Positions 2,789-34,297 of a DNA stretch of 36,597 bases are shown here, piece by piece. The notes beneath the pieces were generated by a model. That model saw only the letters and a program-made list of their open reading frames with translations. It did no database searches and was not told the origin of the DNA. A program made the translations under genes and the position numbers. This stretch comes from Deltaproteobacteria bacterium (lineage in GTDB: Bacteria > Desulfobacterota > WTBG01 > JAGOGO01). The stretch lies in assembly GCA_016935335.1 (NCBI GenBank), contig JAFGRE010000221.1:1-36597 (forward strand). Reading direction: 5' to 3'. Within the stretch, counting starts at the first letter, position 1. Each line of letters begins with the position of its first letter.

Positions 2789-3139
2789 CTGTCAATTCCC
2801 TGAGCCCCGAACTGTTGGCCGAAGAATCAAAGGACCTGAAAGTTTTTTACGATACCACATCAGGGGAAATTTCTCTATTGTTTTGCCCTTCCCGATACAA
2901 TCGCCCCCATGATAAGGAAGCCCGCACCCGGCGCGGAAGCAGTATCCGGTTTTTGCCGGCGGATCACTGCCGCGACGAGCCCTCAATCGGTCATAATCAT
3001 GGGTCTACCGGTCTTGCGCCGGTCAAGCCACCCTTTGATGCTGGGCGAGCAGAGAAACCCTCTTGCAACAAAGCCGCACGGTTGCCGGTGCTCCTGACAC
3101 CGCCATCGGAATCCCATCATCCCTAACCTCTTCATATAG

Positions 3140-3168
3140 TTGCAGAATTTTTAAAACTCTGATATAGT
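3140..3168 (+). promoter_or_regulatory. Putative sigma-70 promoter upstream of FAH-family gene
   Basis: TTGCAG (3140-3145), 17-nt spacer, TATAGT (3163-3168). Confidence 0.5.
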
Positions 3169-3306
3169 GCAACCTGTTCTCTTATATAATCACCCTCGTG
3201 TCAATGATACTCTGTTAATAATATCAGGAATTGCACGTGGGTAAGGCCTGCGGCGTCCGGATCGTCGTCTTTTTCTGCACGCGCTGCTCCCTCGCAAGGA
3301 ACTTGT

Positions 3307-4023
3307 ATGATAACGCTTCCCATCAAAAACCGAAACACGTCGTACGTGATCCAGCCCTCTAAAGTCATTGCCCTGGGGCTCAACTATCGGGATCATATTG
3401 CCGAAAGCGGCTCGTTGGATATAAAAGGTCTTTCTGCGGACATCCCTACGGAACCCATCCTCTTTACCAAAACCCCCAACTGTCTGATCGGACCGGACGA
3501 GCCGATTGTCTTGCCTCAATTCGTCCACACCTACGGTTTTACCGAGATACGAAATGACTATGAGGCTGAACTGGCCTTTATCGTCAAAGACCGCTGCAAA
3601 CATATCTCCGCAACGGCCGCCATGGATCACATCCTGGGCTTTACCTGCTTTAATGACGTAAGCCAACGCAACATTCAGAGGCTGGATACCTCAGGATGGT
3701 TCCGGGCAAAGTCGTTTGATACCTTTGGCCCCATCGGCCCGAGCATTACCTTGCCGGAAGATCTCGGTGATCCTCAAAATCTGACTATTCGGTGCCGCCT
3801 TAATGGAACCGTGGTACAAGAGTCCAATACCCGGTACATGATCTTCGGCGTCCCTCAAATCCTTTCCTTTATCTCAAAACAGTTTACATTGCTGTCCGGT
3901 GATGTCATTGTAACCGGGACCCCCAGCGGCGTCGGTCCCTTGGAACACGGAGACGTCGTGGAGGTTGAAATTGAAAACATCGGGGTGTTGCGTAATCCTG
4001 TAATCGATGAATCGCTCCGGTAA
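3307..4023 (+). CDS. Fumarylacetoacetate hydrolase (FAH) family protein
   Basis: ALGLNYRDHIAESG, EPILFTKTPNCLIGPDEPIVLP, NDYEAELAFIVKD, GDVIVTGTPSGVGPL are classic FAH-superfamily motifs; SD AAGGA upstream. Confidence 0.92.
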   Translation: MITLPIKNRNTSYVIQPSKVIALGLNYRDHIAESGSLDIKGLSADIPTEPILFTKTPNCLIGPDEPIVLPQFVHTYGFTEIRNDYEAELAFIVKDRCKHISATAAMDHILGFTCFNDVSQRNIQRLDTSGWFRAKSFDTFGPIGPSITLPEDLGDPQNLTIRCRLNGTVVQESNTRYMIFGVPQILSFISKQFTLLSGDVIVTGTPSGVGPLEHGDVVEVEIENIGVLRNPVIDESLR

Positions 4024-4119
4024 ACATTCTTTGGTTCCAATCATTATGTTGAATGGATGCCCATCCACGGTTGTCCCTGGAAATGATGACCCGATAGAGC
4101 ATTACAAGGGAGACTACCC

Positions 4120-6039
4120 ATGAAAGTACGGTACGATATCAGCCTCTTCACTGACTATGATATCTTCCTGTTCAAGCAGGGAAATCATTCCCGGTTCTAC
4201 GAAAAGTGCGGATCCCATCCTATGACCACGGACGGCGGTAAAGGAACTTTCTTTGCCGTCTGGGCGCCCAACGCCAAGCAGGTGGCGGTTGTGGGCGATT
4301 TCAACGCCTGGACTCCGGAATCTCACACGCTACGACCACGGGATGACGAGTCAGGTGTTTGGGAAGGATTCATCCCCGGCATTGCCGAAGGCACTGTCTA
4401 CAAGTATCATATCATCTCATCGCATCATGATTATCGGGTCATGAAGGGAGATCCCTTCGCCTTCTACTGGGAGACCCCGCCCAAAACCGCGTCGGTCGTC
4501 TGGAACCATGACTATGAATGGTCGGACAGCGAATGGATGACGAACCGACACCAGTCCAACGCTCTGGATGCGCCGATGTCAATTTATGAGGTTCACCTCG
4601 GTTCTTGGAGACGCGTGGCGGAGGATACGGGAAACCGGCCTCTCTCGTATCGCGAATTGGCGCAGCAACTGTCTGAGTACGTTTCCGAGATGGGATTTAC
4701 CCATGTAGAATTCTTACCGATCATGGAGCATCCCTTTTACGGGTCCTGGGGCTATCAAACGGTAGGATATTTTGCGCCTACCAGTCGCTACGGGACCCCG
4801 CAGGACTTTATGTATCTTATCGATCGGCTGCATCAACACGGCATCGGGGTGATTTTGGACTGGGTACCTTCCCACTTCCCCAGTGACGAACATGGCCTTA
4901 GCTATTTTGACGGAACCTACCTTTACGAACATGCTGATCCCCAGAAAGGCTTCCACCCCGAATGGCAAAGCTACATCTTTAATCATGGCAGGCATGAGGT
5001 GCAGACATTTCTCATAAGCAGTGCCCTGTTCTGGCTTGAGCGATACCATGCCGATGGTCTGAGAGTCGACGCGGTAGCATCGATGCTTTACCTTGATTAT
5101 GCCCGAAAAGATGGTGAGTGGATTCCGAACAAGTACGGAGGGAACGAAAACATTGAGGCAATAAATTTCATAAGATCGTTGAATGAAGCGGTTTACGCCC
5201 ACCATCCTCACACCCAGACATTTGCGGAAGAGTCTACGGCATGGCCAATGGTTTCACGCCCGACCTATGTCGGCGGACTCGGGTTCGGCATGAAATGGAA
5301 CATGGGATGGATGCACGATACGCTCGATTATTTCTCTAAAGAGCCCATTCATCGAAAGTACCATCACAACCAGTTGACTTTCAGCATCTGGTACGCCTTT
5401 TTCGAAAACTTTCTCCTCCCGCTTTCTCACGACGAAGTCGTTCATGGAAAGAGGTCGCTTATCGCTAAAATGCCCGGGGATGACTGGCAAAAATTCGCCA
5501 CCGTGAGACTTCTGTTTGGATATCTTTATGCTCATCCGGGAAAGAAGCTCTTATTTATGGGCGGTGAGTTTGCCCAGTGGGGAGAATGGTATCATGAAGA
5601 AAGTCTGGATTGGCACCTCCTCGAATACGCTCCTCATCAGGGCGTACGGAAATGGGTCAGGGATTTGAATCATCTCTATAAAAACGAACGAGCTCTGTAT
5701 CGATTCGATTTCGAAAACAGAGGGTTCGAATGGGTAGATTGCCATGATTGGGAAGGAAGTATTATCAGCTTTCTGAGAGAGGGTGATGATCATGACGATA
5801 CGATGCTGGTTGTGTGCAACTTTACACCGGTTCCCCGATACCGTTACCGAATCGGCGTTCCCCGGGAAGGGACGTGGTGGGAAGTGCTCAATAGCGACGC
5901 AGCAGAATATGGCGGCAGCGGCTGTGGTAATGGGGGAAGGGCGGAGGCGGAGACAATCCCCTCATACGGCAGACCATTTTCGCTTTCTATAACCCTTCCG
6001 CCACTGGGAATTCTCTTGTTCAGACACGAGAACCCCTGA
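4120..6039 (+). CDS. glgB: 1,4-alpha-glucan branching enzyme (GH13)
   Basis: AVWAPNAKQVAVVGDFNAW, DWVPSHFPSDEHGL, DGLRVDAVASMLYLDY, FAEESTAWP, SHDEVVHGKRSL. Confidence 0.97.
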   Translation: MKVRYDISLFTDYDIFLFKQGNHSRFYEKCGSHPMTTDGGKGTFFAVWAPNAKQVAVVGDFNAWTPESHTLRPRDDESGVWEGFIPGIAEGTVYKYHIISSHHDYRVMKGDPFAFYWETPPKTASVVWNHDYEWSDSEWMTNRHQSNALDAPMSIYEVHLGSWRRVAEDTGNRPLSYRELAQQLSEYVSEMGFTHVEFLPIMEHPFYGSWGYQTVGYFAPTSRYGTPQDFMYLIDRLHQHGIGVILDWVPSHFPSDEHGLSYFDGTYLYEHADPQKGFHPEWQSYIFNHGRHEVQTFLISSALFWLERYHADGLRVDAVASMLYLDYARKDGEWIPNKYGGNENIEAINFIRSLNEAVYAHHPHTQTFAEESTAWPMVSRPTYVGGLGFGMKWNMGWMHDTLDYFSKEPIHRKYHHNQLTFSIWYAFFENFLLPLSHDEVVHGKRSLIAKMPGDDWQKFATVRLLFGYLYAHPGKKLLFMGGEFAQWGEWYHEESLDWHLLEYAPHQGVRKWVRDLNHLYKNERALYRFDFENRGFEWVDCHDWEGSIISFLREGDDHDDTMLVVCNFTPVPRYRYRIGVPREGTWWEVLNSDAAEYGGSGCGNGGRAEAETIPSYGRPFSLSITLPPLGILLFRHENP

Positions 6040-6069
6040 CTTTATTCGTCATTATTTTTTTCTTATTTT

Positions 6070-7146
6070 TTGACATCGCCGGTGAAAAAGAAGAATACCC
6101 CCCTTATCACATCAAAACCAAATGCCCGCAAGGTTGTTCAATACCTTACGAAGAAAAAGGAAGTCTTGTCTCCCTTACTAATCCTTACTCATGACTACCC
6201 GGACCCCGATGCACTGGCAAGCTCCTTTGCCCTCTATTATCTGGCGGGGCATCACTTCAACATCACCTGCCGGATCGTTTACGGCGGTGTCATCGGACGA
6301 ACCGAGAACAGGGAGATGGTCAGAATTCTTCGGATGCCCCTTCACAAGTTTAAAGCTGCTGATCTAAAGCGCTATGCCAATATAGCCCTTGTCGATACCC
6401 AGCCCGCCTTCGAAAACAACCCTTTCCCTAAGGAGCGGCGGGCTACAATCGTCATTGACCAACACATGTCCCTTGACAACCCTGATGCGGAACTGGCCAT
6501 TATCGACAACGAATGCGGAGCCACGTCGGTCATTCTCGCGCAAGCCCTCTTGTCGCTCAGGATTCAAATCCCGCAAAGAGTTGCAACGGCGCTCGCCTAT
6601 GGGATTATTACAGATACCCTTAACCTTGGTCGCGCAAAACGACCGGACATTATTAAAACCTATCTGAACATCCTCTCTTTTTGCGACATGCGGGCTTTAT
6701 CCCGCATTCAGAACCCCTCCCGGTCGCTCAACTTTTTTGCCACCCTCAAACAGGCCATAAAGAACGCCATGATTTGTAACAAACTCGTCATCTCCCATCT
6801 CGGAGATGTCGAATACACTGATTTGGTCTCTCAAACCGCGGATTTCTTGTTGACCTATGACAGCATGCGGTGGTCCCTTTGCACCGGGAGGTACTACGGG
6901 AAACTACACGTTTCCCTGCGGGGCAGAGACCCCTCGACCGTGGCGTCTCCTATTCTACGGAGTGTATTTGACAATCCCCAGGATGCCGGCGGTCATGATA
7001 ATATCGCCGGAGGGAGCTTTGACGTTGGGAAGGAAGCCCCTGAAGCACGGTGGCGAGAGGCTGAAAATGCCGTCGTCCAGCGGCTCATCGAACGGTTAGC
7101 CATTTCTTCACGACGCAAGTTTCTTTTCCCATTTCAAGACCATTGA
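6070..7146 (+). CDS. DHH/DHHA1 family phosphoesterase (NrnA/RecJ-like)
   Basis: LTHDYPDPDALASSFAL, VIDQHMS (DHH-type motif), C-terminal GGHDNIAGGSF (DHHA1). TTG start at 6070. Confidence 0.85.
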   Translation: MTSPVKKKNTPLITSKPNARKVVQYLTKKKEVLSPLLILTHDYPDPDALASSFALYYLAGHHFNITCRIVYGGVIGRTENREMVRILRMPLHKFKAADLKRYANIALVDTQPAFENNPFPKERRATIVIDQHMSLDNPDAELAIIDNECGATSVILAQALLSLRIQIPQRVATALAYGIITDTLNLGRAKRPDIIKTYLNILSFCDMRALSRIQNPSRSLNFFATLKQAIKNAMICNKLVISHLGDVEYTDLVSQTADFLLTYDSMRWSLCTGRYYGKLHVSLRGRDPSTVASPILRSVFDNPQDAGGHDNIAGGSFDVGKEAPEARWREAENAVVQRLIERLAISSRRKFLFPFQDH

Positions 7147-7290
7147 GGAATGATGCGCCGTTCGCATCGTTGCGGCGGTGGGAACGTGCCGGTACCAGGG
7201 CCGGAACCACTATTCCATGAGGTCAAAAAAAGACGCCCGCCTGGAATCATCCGGGGCAGTCTGCGAAGCACCACCAATCAGGACAACGCG

Positions 7291-7794
7291 ATGAAAAACC
7301 TTGAGTTCACTATCAGGATTGCAGAAACAGAAGATGCCGAGAAAATTTATCACCTTCTCTATGACGTTGGAGATGAAGATGTCTACATTATGACCGAACC
7401 GGGAGAGAGAACCATCGAGGACATTAGGACGTTGATTCGCGAGCAGTCGACAAATCGAAACCTGATTTTAGTGGTCGAGAGCTATGGTGACGTTGTTGGT
7501 GTTGCTGGTTTTGTAGGCGGCCGGTTCAGCAAAATCTGTCATGTCGTTGAAATCGGTATGGCGATCGACAAAGATTTCAGGGATTCCGGGTTGGGATCCA
7601 TCCTTCTGAGAGAAGGCATCGCCTGGGCCCGCAAAAAAGGATTCCGCCGGTTGGAACTGGGCGTTTTCTCGACAAATCAGCGGGCCTTGTCCCTGTATAA
7701 AAAATTCGGCTTTCAGGAAGAAGGGGTGCGAAGAAACCGTTACCGGGTTGAGGGAACATGGGTTGACGAAATCCTCATGGCGAAATTTCTGTAA
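7291..7794 (+). CDS. GNAT family N-acetyltransferase
   Basis: ORF 7150..7794; start at 7291 (MKNLEFTIRIAETEDAEKIYHLLYDV) is more likely. VVEIGMAIDKDFRDSGLGSILLREGIAWARKKGFRRLELGVFSTNQRALSLYKKFGFQEEGV. Confidence 0.9.
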   Translation: MKNLEFTIRIAETEDAEKIYHLLYDVGDEDVYIMTEPGERTIEDIRTLIREQSTNRNLILVVESYGDVVGVAGFVGGRFSKICHVVEIGMAIDKDFRDSGLGSILLREGIAWARKKGFRRLELGVFSTNQRALSLYKKFGFQEEGVRRNRYRVEGTWVDEILMAKFL

Positions 7795-8092
7795 GGCCCC
7801 TCAGATTTCGGTAGTTCCAGGGCGGATCAGAATTGTGCTTTTCCTCAGCCTCAGCCGGCTCTTCCCGCTTGTGTTCCTGACAATGTTTATCGCACGTTAA
7901 TGACGACTTTCATCGGCCACCCCGTGGTTTTTGCGGTTACCCTTCATCTTCCACCACCGAAAGCCTGACAGTCTCTTCTACCATCCCATCGAACCGCTGG
8001 TGCTCCGGGAACCGCGTTGCCTCGGTCAGATTCGTTCTCTTCGGGGAACTCGAAGAGAGTCCGCCCTCCGGAATGGCTTCGTCCTGAGTAAA

Positions 8093-8121
8093 TTGACCGG
8101 AATAGTAATCTGTGATACGCT
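8093..8121 (+). promoter_or_regulatory. Putative sigma-70 promoter for the hem genes
   Basis: TTGACC (8093-8098), 17-nt spacer, TACGCT (8116-8121). Confidence 0.35.
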
Positions 8122-8226
8122 GTCAGGACAAAAGTCTAATAATTTCAGGGCAAAAATTTATTACCCCCTGTCTGAATACCGCTGATGCGGAACATCGCAT
8201 CGCCGCACCAAAAGAGAGAGAAGATC

Positions 8227-9258
8227 ATGATCGAGAACTCGGTTTTTTTGAAAGCCTGCCGAAAAGAAGTCACCGAATACACACCCATATGGCTTATGCG
8301 GCAGGCCGGCCGTTATATGAAGGAATATCGCGCCATCAGAAAAAAGGTGGATTTTCTCACCATGTGCAAGACTCCCGAATTAGCCGCCGAAGTTACCTTG
8401 CAACCCATTGAGAAACTGGGAGTCGACGCCGCCATCATTTTTGCCGATATTTTGCTTCCTCTCGAGCCGATGGGAATAACATTGGAATTTACCAAAGGGG
8501 AGGGTCCGGTTATTCATAACCCAATCAGGAATGAAAGCGATATCAATCAGCTACGATCTATCGAACCGGAGGAAGACGTGCCCTTTGTTCTGGAAACCGT
8601 GGAAAAAGTTCGCAAAGAGCTGGATGGTAAAATTCCGCTCATCGGATTTTCGGGAAGCCCCTTTACTCTCGCCAGCTATATGATTGAGGGCGGCCACTCC
8701 CGCAATTTCGTTAAGACCAAGCAATTAATGTATCATTATAGCCGCTCTTGGCATCACCTTATGGAGAAACTGGCTGAGACGGTCACCGCTTATCTTAATG
8801 CTCAAATCAAGGCGGGAGTTCAGGCGGTTCAACTCTTCGACACCTGGGTCGGCTGTCTGAGTCCGCAGGATTATGCGGAGTTTGTCTTACCCCACTCTCG
8901 ATCTATTTTCAAACAACTGGAAAAGGGAATTCCGGCGATACACTTCGCTGCCGACTCATCGTCGCTGCTTGGGCTCATGCAAAAAGCGGGGGGTGATGTC
9001 ATCGGCATTGATTGGCGCATTGATCTGGCGGTTGCCTGGGAGCGTCTGGGATCCGCTGTCGGAATCCAGGGTAACCTGGATCCGGCGATGCTCTTCGCCC
9101 CCCTCCCGGTCATGAAAGACAGGGTGAGAGGCATTCTTGAATCCGCAGCCAATCGTCCCGGGCATATATTCAATTTAGGTCACGGCATCCTGCCCCAAAC
9201 GCCAGTGGAACATGCAAAAGCACTGGTTGAAACTGTCCATGAACTCAGTAGACGATAA
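8227..9258 (+). CDS. hemE: Uroporphyrinogen decarboxylase
   Basis: ORF 8185..9258; start at 8227 (MIENSVFLKACRKEVTEYTPIWLMRQAGRYMKEYR) after an AAGAGAGAGAAG SD. GFSGSPFTLASYMIEGG; FNLGHGILPQTPVEHAK. Confidence 0.97.
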   Translation: MIENSVFLKACRKEVTEYTPIWLMRQAGRYMKEYRAIRKKVDFLTMCKTPELAAEVTLQPIEKLGVDAAIIFADILLPLEPMGITLEFTKGEGPVIHNPIRNESDINQLRSIEPEEDVPFVLETVEKVRKELDGKIPLIGFSGSPFTLASYMIEGGHSRNFVKTKQLMYHYSRSWHHLMEKLAETVTAYLNAQIKAGVQAVQLFDTWVGCLSPQDYAEFVLPHSRSIFKQLEKGIPAIHFAADSSSLLGLMQKAGGDVIGIDWRIDLAVAWERLGSAVGIQGNLDPAMLFAPLPVMKDRVRGILESAANRPGHIFNLGHGILPQTPVEHAKALVETVHELSRR

Positions 9259-20186: not shown

Positions 20187-20969
20187 TTACTCGGCAACAA
20201 CAAAATTGTCACCATATCCTCGCGCATTCAATTCCTTCTGAGCCTCAACGGTTTCCTGCAAGGTACGGAATTTGCCGGCGCGAACCCGGTAAAGCATTCT
20301 CCCGTGGAGATCAAAGGTGCTTATTTCTACCGGCTTGAAATACCGAGAGACGTTACCTTTTAGACGCAAAGCGTTATTGAACTCCTCAAACGCCCCCAGT
20401 TGGATACTAAATTCACCCGTCCAATACGGAATTTTCGTTCCGGTATACGCCGCCCCCTCCCGGACCAAATGTTCATCATCCGCCCCCACTACCCTTATTT
20501 CCACCGGAGCGGTGCCCGGACCGACCAGACCAATATCTCGCGCACCCGCATAAGAGAGATCAATGACGCGGTTCTTCACAAACGGTCCCCGATCATTGAT
20601 TCTCAGTACGGTCTTTTTTCCATCGGTTAAATTCGCAACTTCGACACGGGTTCCAAAGGGAAGAATTCTGTGGGCCGCCGTCTTGGCATACATATCGTAG
20701 ACTTCTCCATTGGAGGTCTTCTTCCCGTGAAAGTCTTCCCCGTACCAGGAAGCAATGCCCCGTTCCACATATCCCTTGGCGTCGGAGAGCGGATAATAGA
20801 CCTTCCCCCCCACGGTATAGGGAGGCGGCATATTGTCTTCTCGCGGCGGCGTAACCGGCGTTCGGGCACAACCGACCGCTCCCGCCGCCAGCACGATCGC
20901 TGAGGCAAGGAGGATGTATCCTCTTAGCCTTCCCCCTGCCCGCAACCAGAGTAAAGAGTGTCTTTTCAT
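20187..20969 (-). CDS. rlpA: Septal ring lytic transglycosylase RlpA-family (DPBB + SPOR)
   Basis: GIASWYGEDFHGKKTSNGEVYDMYAKTAAHRILPFGTRVEVANLTDGKKTVLRINDRGPFVKNRVIDLSYAGARDIGLVGPG; C-terminal SPOR-like domain. Confidence 0.93.
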   Translation of the reverse strand: MKRHSLLWLRAGGRLRGYILLASAIVLAAGAVGCARTPVTPPREDNMPPPYTVGGKVYYPLSDAKGYVERGIASWYGEDFHGKKTSNGEVYDMYAKTAAHRILPFGTRVEVANLTDGKKTVLRINDRGPFVKNRVIDLSYAGARDIGLVGPGTAPVEIRVVGADDEHLVREGAAYTGTKIPYWTGEFSIQLGAFEEFNNALRLKGNVSRYFKPVEISTFDLHGRMLYRVRAGKFRTLQETVEAQKELNARGYGDNFVVAE

Positions 20970-21042
20970 TTTTCTCTAACCGCCAACGCACGATTCACCA
21001 CATCGAGAGGGCAAAAACGGCGCCGTAATCGTCAGCATAGGA

Positions 21043-22401
21043 TTACAGTATGTATCGACTCAAGTCCTCGTCAGTTATAACATCCTGTAACTTCTTTTTG
21101 ACATAGTCCCTGCTGATAACAACTTCTTTTCCCTCCATTTCGGGCGCATCGAAAGAAATCTCGTCGAGAAGCCGCTCCATGATCGTGTACAGGCGACGGG
21201 CACCGATGTTTTCAGTCCGCTCATTGACTATTTCAGCGATTTTGGCTATCTCCTCGACAGCCTCTCCGTCAAAGACCAATATCAACCCTTCCGTTTCCAT
21301 CAGCGCGCGATATTGTTTAACCAGGGCGTTGCGGGGCTCCTGCAGGATGCGGATAAACTCCTCCTTTCCCAACGAATCGAGTTCTACCCGGATCGGAAAC
21401 CTCCCCTGAAGCTCCGGAATAAGATCCGACGGCTTAGAGGCATGAAACGCCCCGGCCGCTATAAAAAGAATGTGGTCAGTCTTGACCATTCCGTACTTTG
21501 TGGTAACAGTCGTTCCCTCAACGATAGGCAGCAGATCTCTTTGAACACCCTCCCGAGAAACGTCAGGCCCGGAATAACTTTCCCGCCCGGTAATCTTGTC
21601 TATTTCGTCAAGGAATATTATCCCGGACTCTTCCACCCGCTCCTTTGCCAGCCGCGTTACTCGATCCATATCAATCAGTCGCTGTGATTCTTCCTGGGCT
21701 AAAATTTCCAGAGCCTGGGGTATTTTGAGCCGCTGTTTCTTTGTTTTCTGGGGAAACAAATTACCGAACATCTCCTTTAAGTTGAATTCCATTTCCTCCA
21801 TTCCACTGGCCGAAAGCACCTCTATAACCGGCATCGTCCGAAACGATGTCTCCAGTTCAACCTCCCGGTCGTCAAGTTTACCCGCCTTCAACAACTGCCG
21901 CAGTTTTTCTCGGGTCGAGGGGGAAATTTGCAGATCTTCCTGGTGCCCATCTGCGACCGTGACCGGTGGAGAAACGTCATCTCTTCGCGACGGAAGTAGT
22001 AAGTCAAGGATTCTTTCTTCGGCATTCTTCTGAGCTTTCTCGTGGACTTTATCGGATTCTTCGGCTTTCACCATGTTGACAGCAATTTCAGTCAGATCCC
22101 TGACCATCGATTCCACATCTCTGCCTACGTATCCGACTTCAGTAAATTTAGATGCCTCAACCTTCAAAAAGGGTGACTGGGCCAGTCTCGAGAGACGACG
22201 AGCGATCTCGGTCTTTCCCACTCCGGTGGGACCCATCATAATAATATTCTTAGGGGCTATTTCGTCACGAAGATCATCGGGTACCTGCCGCCGTCGCCAG
22301 CGATTCCGGAGAGCGACCGCAACAGCGCGTTTAGCTTTGTTTTGACCTATTATGTACTTGTTCAGTTCGGAAACGATATCTTTGGGAGTTAAGTTCGCCA
22401 T
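21043..22401 (-). CDS. hslU: ATP-dependent protease ATPase subunit HslU
   Basis: [87 protein letters not shown]-terminal LSRYIL. Confidence 0.98.
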
Positions 22402-22419
22402 TATGATTCCTCAGAAGTG

Positions 22420-22971
22420 TTATTGTCCAATTTCTTCGATAAGGATCTGCTCATTGGTATAGATACAGATACCGGCTGCAATCTTCATGGCTTCTCGAGC
22501 AATCTCGGAAGCGTCCATAGTGGTGTGGTCCAGAAGACCTTTCGCGGCTGCTTGAGCATAGGGGCCGCCAGAGCCGATGGCGATAACTTCATCATCAGGC
22601 TCGATAACATCCCCCGTCCCGGAGATGATAAACATATGCTCCTTGTCGGCAATAATCAATAATGCCTCCAAACGACGCAGTATCTTATCGGTTCGCCAGT
22701 CCTTAGCCAGTTCTACGGCTGATCGAGTAATATTGCCGTGATAGAGTTCCAACTTGTTTTCGAATTTTTCAAAGAGGGTAAAGGCGTCAGCGGTTGCACC
22801 GGAAAAACCCGCAATGATTTTGTCATGATAGAGTCGGCGAATTTTTTTCGCCTTGTGTTTTAAAACAGTATTGTTCATGGTAACTTGGCCGTCACCGGCC
22901 ACGGCGACCACTCCATTCTTTCGCACGGCGAGAATGGTCGTGCCTCGGATAAGGTAATTTGTTTCCGTCAT
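22420..22971 (-). CDS. hslV: ATP-dependent protease peptidase subunit HslV
   Basis: [61 protein letters not shown]...[21 protein letters not shown] upstream. Confidence 0.98.
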
Positions 22972-22991
22972 GGTTTTCCTTTACAGTGAAA

Positions 22992-23906
22992 TTATGTCTT
23001 GGCTCGGGGATGGCTCTTGTCATATACCTCCATGAGCCGGTCGATGCTTATATGGGTATATCGCTGGGTTGTCGAAAGGCTGCTATGGCCGAGGAGTTCC
23101 TGGATAGCTCGCAGATCAGCCCCCGCATCCAGCAAATGGGTGGCGAAGGTATGCCGTATGGCATGGGGATGAACCGGCCGGAAAAAAGACGCGCGACCCG
23201 CGTACTTGTGTATCATGCGAGCTACGCTTCGAGTCGTCAGTCTTCCTCCTCGCCTGTTGACAAAGAGGGCGCGGTCCCGTTCCGTTTCCTTCGTCTCTAA
23301 GGAGTTCCGCGTGCGGAGGTAATTTTCGATAGCTTCCCGTGCTTTCGTCCCTATGGGAAGGAGCCGTTCTTTTCCTCCTTTACCGGTGACTTTTATCATC
23401 CCTTCTTCCAGGGCCAGATTATCTTCGTTCAAACCAACCACTTCACTTACCCGCAGACCGCAGGAATACATAAGCTCCAAAATCGCGCGATCCCGCCGGC
23501 TTAGAATATCATCCTTATCAGGCTGTTCGATCAATGAGAATATTTCGTCGATCGATAAAAACGTTGGTACGTGTTTTGCCGGTTTCGGTGAAGAAACGGT
23601 CTGAGTCGGGTTTGATGAAATAACCCCCTCCTTCGCCAAGAACCGAAAAAAAGCCCGTAAAGATGCTAATTTCCGGGCTATAGTGGTCTTGGCGTTCTTC
23701 TTGTGCAAGTATGCCAAAAACTCCCGGACAATCAAAGGAGAAATTCCGTCAATCCCACTGTCGCCTTCGGCCCCGGTGTTATTCTGATTTTCCCGTAGGA
23801 ACGCTATAAACTCCTCGATATCAGATCGATATGCCTTCCTAGTATGTACGGAAGCATTTTTTACCGCAAAAAGATACGCATCAAATCTTTCGAGAAGGCT
23901 CTTCAT
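22992..23906 (-). CDS. xerC: Tyrosine recombinase XerC
   Basis: ELMYSCGLRVSEVVGLN, HPHAIRHTFATHLLDAGADLRAIQELLGHSSLSTTQRYTHI; directly upstream of hslVU. Confidence 0.93.
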   Translation of the reverse strand: MKSLLERFDAYLFAVKNASVHTRKAYRSDIEEFIAFLRENQNNTGAEGDSGIDGISPLIVREFLAYLHKKNAKTTIARKLASLRAFFRFLAKEGVISSNPTQTVSSPKPAKHVPTFLSIDEIFSLIEQPDKDDILSRRDRAILELMYSCGLRVSEVVGLNEDNLALEEGMIKVTGKGGKERLLPIGTKAREAIENYLRTRNSLETKETERDRALFVNRRGGRLTTRSVARMIHKYAGRASFFRPVHPHAIRHTFATHLLDAGADLRAIQELLGHSSLSTTQRYTHISIDRLMEVYDKSHPRAKT

Positions 23907-25189: not shown

Positions 25190-26317
25190 TTACGAAAGCC
25201 TCTCTTTGTAGTCTTCATAGCCGAACTCACGAACGATATCGATTTTCCGATCCGTTCTTTGAACTGCAATCGCCGGCAACGGGACTCCGTTAAACGTATT
25301 GTTCTTTACCATGGTGCTGTGCGCCTGATCCAAAAAGACCACCTTTGATCCGACGGTTAAAGGATAGGGAAAGGAATAGTCTCCGATAATATCCCCCGCC
25401 ATACACGTCAGACCTCCCAAGCGATAGGTATGTTCAAACTCACCGGGCTTTCCTGCGCCTGCTATCTCGGGCCGGTAGGGAGCCTCCAAAATATCGGGCA
25501 TGTGCGTCACCGCCGACGTATCTAAGATGGCGATTTCCATTTCATTGGAGATAACATCCAAAACGGAAGCAACCAAGACTGCGGTATTCAAGACAACCGC
25601 CTCTCCCGGCTCGAGATACACGTCAACATGGTAACGATTCTTAACCTCATGGATGAGATCGCAGAGCCGGTCAATGTCATAGTCTTTCCGCGTGATATGG
25701 TGCCCGCCCCCGAAATTGACCCACTCCATCTCGCGCAGAAACGCACCGAACTTTCTCTCAAAAGCGGCAAGAGTTCGTGCCAAAGCATCTGAATTCAATT
25801 CGCAGAGGGTATGAAAATGCAGTCCGGTTATGCCCGTAAGGTCCTTCTCCTGAAAGTTGGTCCTGGTTACCCCGAGGCGTGAGTACCTAACACAGGGATT
25901 ATAACGGTCAATGGCAACTTCGGAATGTTCTGGATTGACGCGGATACCGCACTTAACCTTTTTCGAAACGCAAGGTTTGAAGCGATTCCATTGGGGAAAG
26001 GAATTGAAAACGATGTAGTCACAATAATGAAGCACCTTCTTGAACTCGGACTCTTTATAGGCGGGCGAATAGAGATGGACTTCCTTGCCGAATTCCTCAT
26101 ATCCCAGTCTGGCTTCGTTATAGGAACTCGCTGTTACTCCGCACAAGAACTGCCGGATTATGGGGAACGTACTGAACATGGAAAACACCTTGAGCGCCAG
26201 CAGTATCTTACACTCCGTCCGCTTCTGAACCGCATCAAGGACTTCCATATTCCGTCGCAAGGCGTTTTCATCAAGGATGTAACAGGGAGTAGTGTGAACG
26301 GCATCAATAGTAATCAT
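25190..26317 (-). CDS. nspC: Carboxynorspermidine decarboxylase (PLP, alanine-racemase fold type III)
   Basis: TPCYILDENALRRNMEVLDAVQKRTECKILLALKVFSMFSTFP, GLHFHTLCELNSD, WVNFGGGHHITRKDYD, YLEPGEAVVLN. Confidence 0.93.
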   Translation of the reverse strand: MITIDAVHTTPCYILDENALRRNMEVLDAVQKRTECKILLALKVFSMFSTFPIIRQFLCGVTASSYNEARLGYEEFGKEVHLYSPAYKESEFKKVLHYCDYIVFNSFPQWNRFKPCVSKKVKCGIRVNPEHSEVAIDRYNPCVRYSRLGVTRTNFQEKDLTGITGLHFHTLCELNSDALARTLAAFERKFGAFLREMEWVNFGGGHHITRKDYDIDRLCDLIHEVKNRYHVDVYLEPGEAVVLNTAVLVASVLDVISNEMEIAILDTSAVTHMPDILEAPYRPEIAGAGKPGEFEHTYRLGGLTCMAGDIIGDYSFPYPLTVGSKVVFLDQAHSTMVKNNTFNGVPLPAIAVQRTDRKIDIVREFGYEDYKERLS

Positions 26318-26335
26318 GATCGTGCGGACCCGTCC

Positions 26336-27532
26336 TTACGCAAGTACGTTACCAGGGAGGTGCAATTGCTCCTTCCATGGCAAGCCGTATCGATTTAAAC
26401 ACGCCATAAAAGAATTGGGATCGAATTCTTCTACGTTAAAAACTCCTTTACCTCTCCAGGTCTTGTTGAGCATCAGTAGCGCCCCGATCATAGCAGGAAC
26501 TCCGGTTGTATACGACACTGCCTGCGCTTTAACCTCCTTGTAGCACTGAGCATGGTCACAGATGTTGTACACAAAGTATTCTCTCGGCTTTGCGTCTTTG
26601 ATCCCGCGGATCATACAGCCGATACAAGTCCTCCCTTTATAAGTAGGGGCAAGTGAAGATGGATCAGGTAACAGCCTCTTCAGGAACTGAAGCGGAACAA
26701 TCTTATGCCCCTCAAAGTCAACGGGGTCAATACCGGTCATGCCTACATTTTGCAGGACTCGAAGATGGGTAAGATACTCATTAGAAAAGGACATCCAGAA
26801 TCGCATGCGCTTAATATGGGGAATATTCTTAACAAGGGATTCCATTTCTTCATGATACAACAGGTACATCTCGGTCGTACCGACCGCCGGAAGATCAAAT
26901 GGTCGGTGGATACTTAAAGGTTCAGTTTCAAGCCACCGGCCATTCTCATAATATTTACCCTTGCCGGTGACTTCTCTGATATTGATTTCCGGATTAAAGT
27001 TGGTGGCGAAGGGATGCCCGTGCTCTCCGGCGTTACAATCAACAATATCGACATAATGAATTTCATCGAAATGATTTTTCTGAGCATAGGCGCAGAAGAC
27101 GTTCGTCACTCCCGGATCGAACCCACACCCCAATAACGCCATAATTCCCTGATCTTTGAATTTTTCATGAAACGCCCACTGCTGCTTATAGCAAAAAACA
27201 GCCGCTTCCGGGGATTCGTAATTAGCAGTATCCAGGTAGTCGGTTTTCGTTCTGAGGCAGGCTTCCATAATCGTAAGGTCTTGATACGGCAGTGCGGTAT
27301 TGATAACCAAATCCGGCTCGACGTTTCGAATTAAAGCAACCACCTGTTCAACCTCATCCGCATCAACCCGCGCCGTCCTGATGGGCTTATTAAGTTGATT
27401 CTTGATCGTTTCACATTTTTCAATGGTCCGGCTCGCCAGAATGATCTCCGAAAAAACCTCTGGAACCTGAGCACATTTGTGTGTTACCACGCCCCCCACA
27501 CCGCCGGCTCCGATTATCAAAACTGTGCTCAT
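26336..27532 (-). CDS. Saccharopine dehydrogenase-family carboxynorspermidine synthase
   Basis: MSTVLIIGAGGVGGVVTHKCAQVPEVFSEIILASRTIEKCETI; LLGCGFDPGVTNVFCAYAQKNHFDEIHYVDIVDCNAGEHGHPFATNFNPEINIREV. ATG at 27532 follows an AGGGAG SD (ORF opens at GTG 27544). Confidence 0.92.
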   Translation of the reverse strand: MSTVLIIGAGGVGGVVTHKCAQVPEVFSEIILASRTIEKCETIKNQLNKPIRTARVDADEVEQVVALIRNVEPDLVINTALPYQDLTIMEACLRTKTDYLDTANYESPEAAVFCYKQQWAFHEKFKDQGIMALLGCGFDPGVTNVFCAYAQKNHFDEIHYVDIVDCNAGEHGHPFATNFNPEINIREVTGKGKYYENGRWLETEPLSIHRPFDLPAVGTTEMYLLYHEEMESLVKNIPHIKRMRFWMSFSNEYLTHLRVLQNVGMTGIDPVDFEGHKIVPLQFLKRLLPDPSSLAPTYKGRTCIGCMIRGIKDAKPREYFVYNICDHAQCYKEVKAQAVSYTTGVPAMIGALLMLNKTWRGKGVFNVEEFDPNSFMACLNRYGLPWKEQLHLPGNVLA

Positions 27533-27684
27533 ATTCTCCCTCACTAACTTTTTAAGGATTGACTAATTATGCAGGATCGCCTTTTTCGAAGTGCCCTTGC
27601 GTCTCTCGGCGAAACGATGATCCTTCCAGGAACCCGCTCCCCGCCTCTCCCGATCGTCAGGATATGCACACGGCGCTGAGTGTC

Positions 27685-29244
27685 CTATCGTTGTGCCGGT
27701 TTTCGATAATCGCTGATCTCTTTGCCGATATAACACCGGTTAGGAGCATACATCAGATAATTGTCTTCTTCAAGTCGAAGGTGGTATTTTGCTGCTATCC
27801 GTTTTAACTCTTGACTTTGTTTCTTTGAAATTATCTTCTTCTTTTGAATCGTATGCGCTGTCAAAAGATCTGAAAACGTATCAATGACGTTCCAGAATAT
27901 ATTTTCAACCACCCTATGAATTTCCACATCGAGTTTTAAAAGGAGTTGAACTTTCTTTATGAAGAGCGCATAGCTTCCTTCGCTTTCAATAGTCCCCGTC
28001 AAGCTCTTTACATCAACCTCGACGTCATCTAAGTGATACGCCACAATATCTTCAACCAATGTACCAAGGGATTTTAAAACGAGTTGCGCTTCACCATACC
28101 TCTTCAACCGCTTGCCGGTGCCGTCTGATACGGTTAACGCGGACATAACCGACGCGGCTTTTGTGAAAATCTTGTATTCTTCTCTATTCATAATTGACTG
28201 ATGCAACGCATCCAAAAGAGGCTCAGCCTTTCCCACCGGCAAGCTGAGACCCCCCTCCCAAAACATCCTGAATAATTCCCCGGCATCACCTTCCCCTAAT
28301 TCGAACGTCTTGCGATCATGGCCCAGAGCGAGGGTCGCGATCACGCTTCCAAAAAGACGTTCCAACGCAACATGTCCGCCGGTGAGGGTCTCGAAAAGAT
28401 ATCCCCATTCCCTCCGGTGAAGTCGGAAGAAGTTTCTGATCAACCACAAACTGGCCTGCCCCTCCGCAATAATGTTACCGGCTTTCATCATTGTGGAAAC
28501 GCTGGCGGCAAAGGTCTCTTCCAAGAAGTCAAACCCTCGTTGCAAGCCCAATTTAGATGATAACGATTCCCCAATCCAGACCTCCTGAGTATGGGTAACC
28601 ATGTTTATTTTTGTTTCCGTGAAAGTCATGTGTTCGTCCAGATGAAGCGAAGTCACAAAAAACCGGCTCTGCTGATCGTCGATCTTCTCCGCCACCGCCA
28701 TCATGTCCCGCTTACGCCTTATTCCGTTTCTGAACAGGCTAACCCAGAAAGCATCCGCCACATCTTGTCTGGGTTCTTCTCTTAATTCAAATCTGCTTAC
28801 CGGATTATTTTTCTGGCGTAGAGAGCGATGATCGATCCATTGGGCATCCCCTTTTCTCTTAATATCGTGCCAAAGCCCCATCAATGTTCCCACGCCGCTC
28901 CTCCAATCAGCATGCACTGCCATTTCGAAACCCCGGTTAACGTGTGCCAATACTTTAAAAAATTCATCCTGGAGCCTGTGATAATTTTTGCTCGTATTGA
29001 TCGTCGGATCAATGCCCTTTCTCTTTAACCACGCCTCACACATGAGGGAAAGCGAGTTCTTAAAATAGGCCAGAAACTCCAGATCAACCATCTTGGCGAA
29101 GACGGCTTTTTTCAGTATCTGCACAAGAAAAGGCTTGTGGGGGTCCGGTTCCCATTCTTTACGGAGGGGAACCCATTTCACTATCGAGTTCATAGTCTCA
29201 ACAGGGCCTTGCATGCCCTCACGGCGCACCGTTTCAGATATCAA
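27685..29244 (-). CDS. Uncharacterised protein (519 aa)
   Basis: Long ORF; probable TTG start at 29244 with SD AAGGAG; overlaps the end of the preceding gene by 11 nt. Predominantly helical-looking sequence; no motif recognised. Confidence 0.8.
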   Translation of the reverse strand: MISETVRREGMQGPVETMNSIVKWVPLRKEWEPDPHKPFLVQILKKAVFAKMVDLEFLAYFKNSLSLMCEAWLKRKGIDPTINTSKNYHRLQDEFFKVLAHVNRGFEMAVHADWRSGVGTLMGLWHDIKRKGDAQWIDHRSLRQKNNPVSRFELREEPRQDVADAFWVSLFRNGIRRKRDMMAVAEKIDDQQSRFFVTSLHLDEHMTFTETKINMVTHTQEVWIGESLSSKLGLQRGFDFLEETFAASVSTMMKAGNIIAEGQASLWLIRNFFRLHRREWGYLFETLTGGHVALERLFGSVIATLALGHDRKTFELGEGDAGELFRMFWEGGLSLPVGKAEPLLDALHQSIMNREEYKIFTKAASVMSALTVSDGTGKRLKRYGEAQLVLKSLGTLVEDIVAYHLDDVEVDVKSLTGTIESEGSYALFIKKVQLLLKLDVEIHRVVENIFWNVIDTFSDLLTAHTIQKKKIISKKQSQELKRIAAKYHLRLEEDNYLMYAPNRCYIGKEISDYRKPAQR

Positions 29245-29845
29245 ACATCTCCTTTTCGATTTTTTTCGCCCTTTCTTTTATCGCCCGCTGAATCATGCGG
29301 AGTTCCTCTCGGGCCTGTTCTCGAATTTCCTGCGTGATCATCGTTAGGGTTTCTTCATCGTACCGAAGCAGGTCTTCCACCTCCGGTTCAAAATTGCTGA
29401 GCCAGTGACCTGAGAGCCATTCCTCGATTTCGTCACCATCATCCAAAGGAATCTCAACCGGCAGTTCAACCAAAAATGCCAAGTTTACAATGTTTCTCAT
29501 CAGGCCTTCGTCATGGTAAAGAACTGAAGCGTCATTTCTATCCGCAAGAGAAAACGCCACCGCCACTGCTTGTATTGGAAACAATTGCCCCTTCTCGTCA
29601 ATCAACTCCGGGTCGTGAGCAAGAGCCCGGAGAAGCTCTCCTCGAGGCAATTCACATATTACCCAGCCGGTATCACCCCGTGATGTCAACAATCCCAACT
29701 CCTGCGGAGACATCTCCCGATAGAGGCGAACCCGGGTTTCATCAGCGCATTGTGATAAAACAGCCTCCGCTTCCCGAATATCCTTGGCTTTAAGAAACGC
29801 AGCGATGTCGTTTTTGGCCTTCTTATACGCGATTATTTGTCCCAC
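29234..29845 (-). CDS. Uncharacterised protein (203 aa)
   Basis: ORF 29234..29908 but best start is GTG at 29845 behind SD GGAAGGA: (M)GQIIAYKKAKNDIAAFLKAKDIREAEAVLSQCADETRVRLYREMSPQELGLL...; charged helical C-terminus. Confidence 0.78.
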   Translation of the reverse strand: MGQIIAYKKAKNDIAAFLKAKDIREAEAVLSQCADETRVRLYREMSPQELGLLTSRGDTGWVICELPRGELLRALAHDPELIDEKGQLFPIQAVAVAFSLADRNDASVLYHDEGLMRNIVNLAFLVELPVEIPLDDGDEIEEWLSGHWLSNFEPEVEDLLRYDEETLTMITQEIREQAREELRMIQRAIKERAKKIEKEMFDI

Positions 29846-30245
29846 GTATGGGTTCCTTCCGATATCTCCACAGAATTGCCAACACCTGAAGAAATTTTTC
29901 CGGATCATTCCTTTTAAGATTTTTCAGGACAATTGCCGTATCTCCGGCAGCACGCACCAAACTGTCGGTCTGCCTGCACGCCGCCCCAAGTGAAATACTG
30001 TTGCTCCAAAGCTTTTTTAACAATTGGTTTGCTTCCGACTTTATGTGGAATTCCCCGACTGTCAGAGCGCAGGCGACATCCTGAGGAAGCATGAATTCCC
30101 CGATCCTTTCCCCGCATTGAACACACCCGCGCAGAAGTTGCCTTCTGAAGTCAAGGACATCCCGCCGACCCTGAACAATTACGTTCGCCGAGACCGATGA
30201 TTCAAATTCTTCAAAAAACTCCGCGATTCTGTTATTGATTCTCAT
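29823..30245 (-). CDS. Uncharacterised protein (140 aa) with a CxxC motif
   Basis: MRINNRIAEFFEEFESSVSANVIVQGRRDVLDFRRQLLRGCVQCGERIGEFMLPQDVACALTVGEFHIKSEANQLLKKLW...; overlaps the downstream gene start by 23 nt. Confidence 0.7.
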   Translation of the reverse strand: MRINNRIAEFFEEFESSVSANVIVQGRRDVLDFRRQLLRGCVQCGERIGEFMLPQDVACALTVGEFHIKSEANQLLKKLWSNSISLGAACRQTDSLVRAAGDTAIVLKNLKRNDPEKFLQVLAILWRYRKEPIRGTNNRV

Positions 30246-30661
30246 TCGTCGTGGGCCGCCACATCCCCTCTTCGTTTTACCACAATTATTGCTGCTTGTT
30301 GCATTAAATGAGGACGGAATACTGCTTCTTGGTGCTTGGATTTGCTTTGATCATTCTTTTCCTGAGTACACCATGATATGCCCGATGCTAACTTCCGCTT
30401 TCATGGTTGCCAGGACGAAGACACGGCGGAGAAGTAAAAAAGTTCAATAATTATAAAGAAGTAAAAAGCTCAAGCCATGAAATGAACGGTCGGCTGAAAC
30501 CATATCTAGAGGTGCAAGATTACGGATTTTAAACCCTGTTGTCAAGTCGTTTCGACCCATCCCTCGCGCATCCCTCCAGGAATTTCGCTGAGGGTGCTGC
30601 AAAAAAACAACAAAGCACAATCCTCACCGAAGGCCCCTGAAATCAGATATTCCCTTCGGGT

Positions 30662-30688
30662 AAACCCTTTAGTATTACCAACGTCTAA
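30662..30688 (+). promoter_or_regulatory. Putative ECF-sigma promoter upstream of the FecR/DUF6600 gene
   Basis: AAACCC (30662-30667), N16, TCTAA (30684-30688) within CGTCTAAT; spacing matches the RpoE-type pattern GAACTT-N16-TCTRA; 30 nt to the ATG. Confidence 0.45.
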
Positions 30689-30718: not shown

Positions 30719-32773
30719 ATGAACATCATCATTAAGTTTTTTGCAGCAATCATTACTGGGGCCTGTTCTCTGATTCCCCTGCTCATCTGGCCGGCTTCTT
30801 CGTATGCCTACGACGACGGGGCAATTCTCGTTGGCAAGATAGCCTGCGTTGAAGGGCAGGTGCTCCGCTATGTGCCGGAGGAGAACGACTGGGTCACCAC
30901 CGTCGAAGACACTCCCTTTGGCGTGGAAGATGTACTCTATTCTTCCTATGACGGAAAAGCGGAGATCATTTTGCCCAACAATACCTGGATAAGGGTAGAC
31001 GGCGACACCCAGATCGAGCTTAATGCCCTTACAAACGATCTGACCGAGATTTACCTCGATTCAGCCACAGCTCGCCTCTACAACAAAAGTCCCGGCACCG
31101 TCATCAAGGCGGTTAGTGCCTTCGGCTCCCTTGAGGCTTCCGGGGGCGTCATCGTTGATCTTTACGTGGCCGATGGTGCAATAGAAGTAATCGCCCTTAA
31201 GGGAACGGCCATATTTTCCCACAGTATCGACAACACCCGCCATGAAGTGATCGCCGGCTCGTCTTCCATTATTGCGGATAAGGGTTCAGTGACCGCCGGC
31301 GGGGCATATGTTGCCTCGGGGTGGGATAGCTGGAACAGAGAGAGGGACCGGCTGTGGGCGGAGAGGATGAGGGAAAGCCGGGAATCCTCCGTGAATCTGC
31401 CCCCGAGCCTGCGGGATGAAGCCTATGTGCTGGATACGTACGGCAGATGGGAAGATGTTTATTATGATGACGCTTATTACCGTCTCTGGCGTCCCGTCCG
31501 GGTCGACATCGGATGGGCACCCTTCACGATGGGCAGATGGACGCTATGGTGCGGCGACCATACCTGGATCCCCTGCGAGCCGTTCGGATACGTTACTCAC
31601 CACTACGGCAATTGGATATGCACCGATGGTTTGTGGTACTGGGCTCCCCCGGTTAACCGAGTATCGCTGAAGACCGGCCATCACTTCCTTAATATCGGAT
31701 ACGGATGGTATCCGGGAAGAGTGGCCTGGCTTCACTCCGGGGTCCATGTCGGCTGGGTTCCTCTGGCACCTTCTGAGCCTTATTACTGCCACCGCCGCTG
31801 GGGGAGGCACTCGGTAGTAATCAATGACGTCGCCATACGTCACTTTGACAATCATCCGGAACGATACAGAAACCACCGTCGTGCGACAATAATTGACCGG
31901 GATAATTTATACCGCCTCAGAAGCTATGAAAAGGCGAGGGTTAAAAATGTCCGACCCGCCACGTTGACTAAAACGTACCGAGCGACGCCGGTCCTTCAAA
32001 ACGCACACCTGACGAATCAAAGCTGGAACGTAAAACAGTTCTCTTTTACCACTGATCCTCCCCGGCGGAAGCCGGATCGAGCAGTGACTGAAAGAATCAC
32101 CCACGGCCGGACAGTGCAACCGAACACTGGGCTTGGCAACACCGGTAATTATCGAAAAAACGGAACCGATGCCGCACTCGTTAAACCCGTAGCGAAGGGT
32201 CGAAAGTACGGCAACCGGCAAGATCCCGAAACGATTAAGTTTTCTGCGGTTAAAACAAGCAATGCCGACGGCAGGATGAGGGTGGAGAGCCGGGATTTAT
32301 CACACAGCACCACGATAAACCGGAAAGAACCGCCCGCCCCGAAAGTCTCAAACCGGACAACGATCGTACCCGGCGACCGCCGGCAAAGCGGGAGTAAAAC
32401 GGAAATGACTAAAAAATCTGTTCCTCCGGTGGCGGAGCGCCGGAAAATAGAGAACGTCTACAAAATGCAAACCGCAAAACAAACCTATCGCCGTTCGGGC
32501 CAAAAGCCGCCACCGCAAGAGGGCAAGGCTTCGTCTGTCTTCCAAACGTATCAATCGTACGGGAATACGGGGGCAAGTCCGCTGCTACGGAATGAGCAAA
32601 CCCGTGATCGTCAATCGGAACAGAAACCACCCTCCGCGACCTCTCGGACAATGAAAACCGATAACCATCGAAAGACCAACATCGGCGCATCGAGACGGGT
32701 CGGTACCGGCTTTAAATCCGGAGTCGGTTTCATAACGGAAGGGGGCAACGGCAACCGTCTTGGCCGACGGTAA
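30719..32773 (+). CDS. FecR-like / DUF6600-type exported protein with basic C-terminal tail (684 aa)
   Basis: Signal peptide; FecR-like GKAEIILPNNTWIRVDGDTQIELNAL; W/Y/G-rich repeats YGRWEDVYYDDAYYRLWRPVRVDIGWAPFTMGRWTLWCGDHTWIPCEPFGYVTHHYGNWICTDGLWYWAPP; SD AAAGGAG. Confidence 0.85.
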   Translation: MNIIIKFFAAIITGACSLIPLLIWPASSYAYDDGAILVGKIACVEGQVLRYVPEENDWVTTVEDTPFGVEDVLYSSYDGKAEIILPNNTWIRVDGDTQIELNALTNDLTEIYLDSATARLYNKSPGTVIKAVSAFGSLEASGGVIVDLYVADGAIEVIALKGTAIFSHSIDNTRHEVIAGSSSIIADKGSVTAGGAYVASGWDSWNRERDRLWAERMRESRESSVNLPPSLRDEAYVLDTYGRWEDVYYDDAYYRLWRPVRVDIGWAPFTMGRWTLWCGDHTWIPCEPFGYVTHHYGNWICTDGLWYWAPPVNRVSLKTGHHFLNIGYGWYPGRVAWLHSGVHVGWVPLAPSEPYYCHRRWGRHSVVINDVAIRHFDNHPERYRNHRRATIIDRDNLYRLRSYEKARVKNVRPATLTKTYRATPVLQNAHLTNQSWNVKQFSFTTDPPRRKPDRAVTERITHGRTVQPNTGLGNTGNYRKNGTDAALVKPVAKGRKYGNRQDPETIKFSAVKTSNADGRMRVESRDLSHSTTINRKEPPAPKVSNRTTIVPGDRRQSGSKTEMTKKSVPPVAERRKIENVYKMQTAKQTYRRSGQKPPPQEGKASSVFQTYQSYGNTGASPLLRNEQTRDRQSEQKPPSATSRTMKTDNHRKTNIGASRRVGTGFKSGVGFITEGGNGNRLGRR

Positions 32774-32861: not shown

Positions 32862-33095
32862 ATGAGAGTATTGTGCGTAACCGGTTCATATAAAGGTTTT
32901 GGAGACGATTTTTACGAGTACCGATTAAACGTGGCGCTTCCCGATTGTAAATTATTTTTCCCTTATGCTATAAATGATCAAGACTTTTATACTTGTCTGC
33001 GGAATTCTTGCACCCCGGAGAGCATGCAGCCGGAAGCAGATATATTTCGACTGAAAAGCACCCATCGAACCTCATATGCCAGCATCGATCGTTGA
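32862..33095 (+). CDS. Candidate small ORF (77 aa)
   Basis: Internal Met of ORF 32760..33095: MRVLCVTGSYKGFGDDFYEYRLNVALPDCKLFFPYAINDQDFYTCLRNSCTPESMQPEADIFRLKSTHRTSYASIDR; strong SD GGGGAGG (32846-32852) 9 nt upstream. Confidence 0.4.
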   Translation: MRVLCVTGSYKGFGDDFYEYRLNVALPDCKLFFPYAINDQDFYTCLRNSCTPESMQPEADIFRLKSTHRTSYASIDR

Positions 33096-33138
33096 CCAGG
33101 AAGAGCAGGAACGTGACGCCCCGGGGGGAAGACTCACT

Positions 33139-33735
33139 ATGGTCCAAAAAGATGAGGCACTGGTCGCCCGCGCACAAAAACACGATCAACAAGCGATTGA
33201 AGAACTGATCAACCGTTACCAGGACAGGGCATATGCCATAGCCTATCACATGTGTTCCGGAGACAGCGAAGAGGCACAGGATATGACCCAGGAAGCCTTC
33301 TTAAAGATGTTCGGGAGTATTGGCAAGTTTCGCGGAACCTCCTCATTCTACACGTGGTTTTATAGGATTGTAGTGAACACCTGCCTCGACGAAAGAAGAC
33401 GCCGCCGGAGAAAGGAACGAATCTTCTCGTTCCGGCGACCTGATCGAGGGAATGATGACCCCGCTAAAGACGTGTTTGAAGAGGAACCTGATCGAAGGGG
33501 AGATGCGAATCCTCTCGATGTACTAAGCGGGGAGGAGTTGGGCCGGGAGATCCGAAAAGCCGTGCAGTCCCTGCCCGAAAAGCAGCGAACTGCCTTTCAA
33601 CTTAAAGTATTTCATGGCCTGAGCATCCGTGAAATCGCTCTGGTGATGAATTTAGCTGAAGGGACCATAAAAAACCATCTTTTCCGGGCAACCCATTTTA
33701 TGCAAAAAGCCCTCGGGCAATGGATGACGCCGTAA
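33139..33735 (+). CDS. ECF-family RNA polymerase sigma factor (RpoE-like)
   Basis: ORF 33076..33735; start at 33139 behind GGGGGGAAG. LVARAQKHDQQAIEELINRYQDRAYAIAYHMCSGDSEEAQDMTQEAFLKMFGSIGKFRGTSSFYTWFYRIVVNTCLDERRR; LPEKQRTAFQLKVFHGLSIREIALVMNLAEGTIKNHLFRA. Confidence 0.95.
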   Translation: MVQKDEALVARAQKHDQQAIEELINRYQDRAYAIAYHMCSGDSEEAQDMTQEAFLKMFGSIGKFRGTSSFYTWFYRIVVNTCLDERRRRRRKERIFSFRRPDRGNDDPAKDVFEEEPDRRGDANPLDVLSGEELGREIRKAVQSLPEKQRTAFQLKVFHGLSIREIALVMNLAEGTIKNHLFRATHFMQKALGQWMTP

Positions 33736-33748
33736 AGGAGATGATATC

Positions 33749-34297
33749 ATGAAACCGTGTCCTGCTTTTAAAGAAACATTGCTCCTTGACATCTATGGGG
33801 AATTAGATCACGACCATCTGTCGGATTGGGAAAGGCATCTGGAATCGTGTGAAGCCTGCCGCCGGGAAAAAGACCGGCTTTTAAGCATGCTCCATACAGT
33901 GAAAACCGGCCTGCCGACGCCGTCTCTGTCCTTCGTAGCGGCTGAGAAAATTTCCGGTTCCGTTATGCGTAAACTGGTTGAAGGACGCACTGATGCACGG
34001 TGGTGGCAACTTTTCGCAGGGCAACACCGGCTGGTTCCCGCTCTGGCAACCACATTCTTGGTCATTGCAGTTTCGACGTGGTTCTTCTTGAGAGAATTCC
34101 AACCTTCACATCCGTTTTTTCAAAATGCCGCCCATATCACGGCTAATGAACAGATGCCTATCGATGACCTGGAAGTGATCAAAAACATGGACCTTCTCAA
34201 GGAAATGGATACTATCGAAAAACTTGTTACGTTCGTTGAGGAACCGGAATATGGAAGCCTTAATGACTATGAACGGCAATGCATCTCCTATGGTTAA
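33749..34297 (+). CDS. Anti-sigma factor with zinc-finger (zf-HC2-like) domain and one TM segment
   Basis: DIYGELDHDHLSDWERHLESCEACRREKDRLL (H...CxxC); TM VPALATTFLVIAVSTWFFL; adjacent to the ECF sigma gene. Confidence 0.88.
   Translation: MKPCPAFKETLLLDIYGELDHDHLSDWERHLESCEACRREKDRLLSMLHTVKTGLPTPSLSFVAAEKISGSVMRKLVEGRTDARWWQLFAGQHRLVPALATTFLVIAVSTWFFLREFQPSHPFFQNAAHITANEQMPIDDLEVIKNMDLLKEMDTIEKLVTFVEEPEYGSLNDYERQCISYG

Follow-up and report, generated by a model that had tools for sequence, protein, structure and literature searches.

Gene pairs that overlap by the single nucleotide of TAATG are a standard configuration for termination-reinitiation (PMC10666635; PMC6728339). In E. coli, pairs that overlap or are separated by a very short gap encode subunits of heteromeric complexes in 30.4% of cases, against 6.8% for more distant pairs, an enrichment of 4.5 times that was measured for spacings of −8 to +10 (PMC10666635). 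We examine here a locus that resembles such pairs at one of its two junctions. It lies on a contig of 36,597 nucleotides (C246, hereafter the window) of a draft genome (G000; 2.8 Mb, 91.5% complete), where a sequence-only reading had described an overlapping cassette of three unrecognised genes. All three minus-strand open reading frames that it listed (27685–29244, 29234–29845 and 29823–30245) are present. An operon is well supported by our comparison, and the three genes are probably a real functional unit; the features, with revised boundaries for the third gene, are collected in Table 1.

Table 1. Features of the three-gene locus and its flanks, in window coordinates.
Feature	Position	Strand	Basis or comparison
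Gene 1, 140-aa soluble protein, unclassified	29823..30245	-	Orthologues of 140 and 143 aa (G001, G002), 64% identical
Gene 1/gene 2 overlap, 23 nt, GTG start inside gene 1	29823..29845	-	Identical in G001, TAATG in G002
Gene 2, unclassified acidic protein of 203 aa (pI 4.6), modelled as all-helical with a long helix at its C terminus	29234..29845	-	Orthologues 72% and 64% identical, gap-free
Gene 3 from the ATG that the relatives support; C-terminally truncated, 509 aa	27685..29214	-	Alignment to G001 and G002 (610 aa each)
Gene 3 extension to TTG, probably not the native start	29215..29244	-	TTG out of frame in G001 and G002
Stretch where the relatives' C-terminal domain is expected, 140 nt	27545..27684	-	No similarity by tblastn or blastn
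Conserved block TTGACA-N17-TAATCT, candidate sigma-70 promoter	30517..30553 (-35 30545-30540, -10 30522-30517)	-	Aligned with G001

The comparison covers three genomes from three genera, all draft MAGs: G000 and the two further members of its family, G001 and G002, which the GTDB contig set labels Proteobacteria and Deltaproteobacteria. Co-location in other genomes had been set as a test of the cassette, and profile and contig searches find the trio as a unit in all three family genomes (on a contig numbered C258 in both relatives), with gene order and strand identical. Identities to the window proteins, in G001 and G002, respectively, are 64% and 64% for protein 1, 72% and 64% for protein 2, and 58% and 50% for protein 3. 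Across the trio, 13–28% of second codon positions differ and 55–65% of third positions; for gene 1 alone, dN is about 0.23–0.28 and third positions differ by 58–64%. All three genes evidently evolve under purifying selection, and, judged by the identities, the trio appears to have been inherited vertically. Searches with three-row profiles found no match in the 392 other genomes sampled from the phylum; protein 3 alone gave no match in 14 other genomes of the class, and a search of another class (29 genomes) with protein 2 was equally empty. Phyla beyond that of the host were covered by a seed-based GTDB contig scan alone, which with protein 3 returned only G001 and G002, its seeds being strict enough for distant homologues to escape. 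As far as could be searched, then, the trio seems limited to one uncultured family.

The three proteins had been described as lacking any recognisable motif or family, and this stands: in the window and relative versions, Pfam, NCBIfam, PHROGs and PADLOC gave only chance-level matches, the best being phrog_2435, annotated without a function (E 0.0016, covering 35 residues in protein 1). A PDB sequence search with the three profiles was topped by a viral nucleoprotein (E 0.02 over 88 positions), which we take as chance. DUF6178 (PF19676), close to protein 3 in size and common in the same class, was rejected as a relative of proteins 2 or 3, with no hmmscan match and an hhalign probability of 0.7% or lower. 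It occurs in most of the class and is a separate gene in G000 (C174:263-1876); we did not find it in G001 or G002. The window proteins contain no transmembrane-like stretches (maximum 19-residue Kyte-Doolittle mean of 1.2 or less), and by hydropathy all three products are predicted to be soluble.

The junction between genes 1 and 2 agrees with the first description. The 23-nt overlap, with its GTG start preceded by GGAAGGA, a Shine-Dalgarno sequence internal to gene 1, was correctly read in the window and is common to two genera, recurring unchanged in G001; in G002, the overlap is 1 nt with an ATG start (TAATG) and a Shine-Dalgarno sequence, so that some overlap is found in all three genomes. 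Because the overlap is exact in G001 and takes the TAATG form in G002, it looks as though the two genes are indeed translationally coupled. The CVQCGERI motif noted earlier in the smallest protein is confirmed, and CVQCG (Cys41, Cys44) and Cys59 are invariant in the three orthologues. Protein 1 is basic in the window only, with a pI of 9.5 compared with 7.6 and 6.7 in the relatives.

For gene 2, the 203-aa frame from GTG, as first proposed, is to be preferred over the 224-aa frame from ATG in the mechanical list of open reading frames, because G001 has a stop within the additional stretch. The protein carries a net charge of −13 to −19 in all three genomes. Its AlphaFold model, built from a three-row alignment, is all-helical (mean pLDDT 78.8), and the long terminal helix that had been anticipated spans residues 164–201, where confidence is low. 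Foldseek searches of this model against the PDB and viral models gave no significant match. The top match, the cytosolic N domain of MgtE (PDB 2oux; E 0.6–0.8, TM-score 0.22–0.29), was rejected: both structures are helical, but such values, with no Pfam match at E 10 and no sequence match, are not evidence of membership.

The junction between genes 2 and 3 is less constrained. An 11-nt overlap from a TTG start had been proposed, and this TTG is in frame in neither relative. The ATG at 29214, 19 nt after the gene 2 stop, instead aligns residue for residue with the start in G001 (MQGPVETMNSIVKW in the window against MQKQKDVIEHIAKW), and the native gap in the window is thus probably 19 nt, the corresponding gaps being 17 nt in G001 and 150 nt in G002. 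The strong AAGGAG reported ahead of the TTG is indeed there, but the codons in which it sits encode conserved protein 2 residues, which explains its presence without a TTG start; the TTG may possibly serve as a species-specific start. With gaps of 19, 17 and 150 nt, we reject genes 2 and 3 as a coupled pair with a conserved overlap or very short gap, and the 150-nt gap argues against coupling in G002. Of the overlaps that had been read as signs of translational coupling and expected to recur in relatives, that of genes 1 and 2 does so (23, 23 and 1 nt), whereas that of genes 2 and 3 does not. Since the latter overlap is not conserved, a fixed stoichiometry across the trio, which had also been suggested, is unsupported.

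Upstream of gene 1, the divergent intergenic region has a single conserved block in common with G001, GAAACGACTTGACA...TAATCT. It reads TTGACA-N17-TAATCT in the window and TTGACA-N17-TAACCT in G001, pointing at the trio in both, and the local alignment score of the two blocks was reached in none of 1000 shuffles. A generic promoter scanner found no excess of sites in the intergenic region, so the argument for a promoter rests on conservation. The block lies 271 nt from gene 1 in the window and 137 nt in G001, and 166 and 155 nt from the divergent DUF6600 gene; this steadier distance means that it may also have a role for the DUF6600 gene. In G002, uvrA lies upstream of the trio, and the block was not seen there. 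We infer a common transcript of the three genes. On the plus strand, GGTAAACC-N15-CGTCTAA (30659–30688) stands upstream of the DUF6600/FecR-like gene (30719–32773), with boxes and spacing that recur in G001. This element looks like an ECF-sigma promoter; just downstream of the DUF6600/FecR-like gene are an ECF sigma factor gene (33076–33735) and a probable anti-sigma gene (33749–34297).

The surroundings of the trio bear on two alternative accounts of its origin and state. The length of 519 aa originally assigned to the third protein describes a product truncated at its C terminus. Protein 3 has 610 residues in both G001 and G002, with a conserved basic C-terminal domain (pI about 10) that ends in AEPRKPRE-K/R-WE, and similarity to the window protein stops no more than about 10 residues before the TAG at 27685. 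In G000, protein 3 has evidently lost its basic C-terminal ~100 residues, the last sixth of the protein. Downstream of the trio each genome has a different gene: nspS-like in G000, one for HU in G001 and one for an NtrC-type regulator in G002. These differences fit a rearrangement at the 3′ border of gene 3. It could be asked whether the operon of G000 is decaying, gene 3 being a pseudogene by 3′ loss, or whether the contig was mis-joined there. We consider this rather unlikely, although no remnant of the missing residues was found past 27685 or elsewhere in the assembly (an empty result of limited weight; the assembly is 91.5% complete) and each genome has its own downstream gene: the 509 codons that are left form an open frame, conserved to the same degree as its counterparts in the relatives, gene 1 and gene 2 are both intact, and GC content is continuous over the junction. 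Decay in G000 would in any case be compatible with either functional reading of the relatives. Starting 140 nt past the gene 3 stop in the window, a carboxynorspermidine synthase-like gene forms a pair with a carboxynorspermidine decarboxylase gene (nspC); the pair (25190–27544, minus strand) corresponds to the carboxy-(nor)spermidine polyamine pathway. In G002 the trio adjoins a gene (2971–8436 of locus L027, minus strand) for a double-length UvrA-like protein of 1821 aa with two UvrA units in tandem. Varying downstream neighbours, together with unrecognised genes of restricted distribution, might also suggest a mobile cassette or a defence cassette, derived from a phage or carried on a plasmid, but we regard this as very unlikely. 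PADLOC, which we also used to reject an anti-phage defence system, gave no match to the window and G001 versions of the three proteins, and PHROGs none that was significant; no relative was found in viral contigs scanned with all three proteins, in phage records searched by tblastn with protein 3, or in a plasmid collection searched by tblastn with proteins 1 and 2. Moreover, each of the three genera carries the trio, its identities fall within the range of neighbouring genes (59% for the DUF6600 protein, 46% for the NspS-like protein), and it has no adjoining integrase save a housekeeping-type XerC at 22992–23906. The latter belongs to an ordinary housekeeping cluster (20187–23906, minus strand) in which genes for a XerC-type recombinase, an HslV-like protein and an HslU-like protein are consecutive and an RlpA-like gene comes next.

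We propose a vertically inherited, lineage-restricted three-gene operon that would be transcribed from one sigma-70-type promoter, with termination-reinitiation at the overlap coupling genes 1 and 2 and gene 3 most likely using its own ATG shortly past gene 2. The soluble products would most likely enter a cytosolic heteromeric complex in which protein 3, basic and of 610 aa in the relatives, acts as scaffold, protein 2, acidic and helical with its long C-terminal helix, is the subunit that binds it, and protein 1, small and with its CxxCG, is the coupled partner of protein 2 and possibly a metal- or redox-binding subunit. Such a complex, including the contacts named here, is our tentative preference, at a little under an even chance. 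The multi-subunit complex first suggested from the window alone is made plausible by the conserved coupling configuration of genes 1 and 2 and by charge, protein 2 being acidic and protein 3 basic (net +5 to +19) in each genome; the junction of genes 2 and 3 lacks such a constraint. The AlphaFold model of protein 3, mostly helical and of low confidence (pLDDT 39), was left out of the fold search. It is also quite possible, though we do not lean to it, that the operon is functional and its products form no stable complex, the three proteins being only co-expressed and working in a shared pathway or regulatory circuit, say as an adaptor, an effector and a CxxC-bearing sensor or regulator. Co-location is all that has been demonstrated, the distance between genes 2 and 3 is not conserved, and about 70% of close E. 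coli gene pairs encode no complex subunits (PMC10666635), whereas the overlap kept between genes 1 and 2 speaks for the complex, as does the contrast in charge between proteins 2 and 3. A bolder version of the preferred complex, in which three new families make up a machine that defines an uncultured deltaproteobacterial family, a large helical scaffold carrying an acidic helical adaptor to which the CxxCG subunit is tied through translation, we would rate as a long shot.

The trio adds three protein families without a classification, found together in a single uncultured family, and it offers a defined unit for expression and structural work. It also illustrates that start-codon and length calls made from one genome can mislead, since two relatives corrected both. 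In comparison with known systems, the stop/start overlap of genes 1 and 2 is like that of described termination-reinitiation pairs (PMC10666635; PMC6728339), although its 23 nt in two of the three genomes exceeds the −4, −1 and −8 spacings common among known coupled pairs; as such an overlap lies outside the −8 to +10 range, the prior for a complex is weaker than 4.5 times. Like the FESNov families (PMC10849945), the three proteins gave no homologues outside one uncultured clade in the collections searched, evolve under purifying selection and keep a conserved gene context. Unlike those single families, however, three of this kind stand here in one operon.
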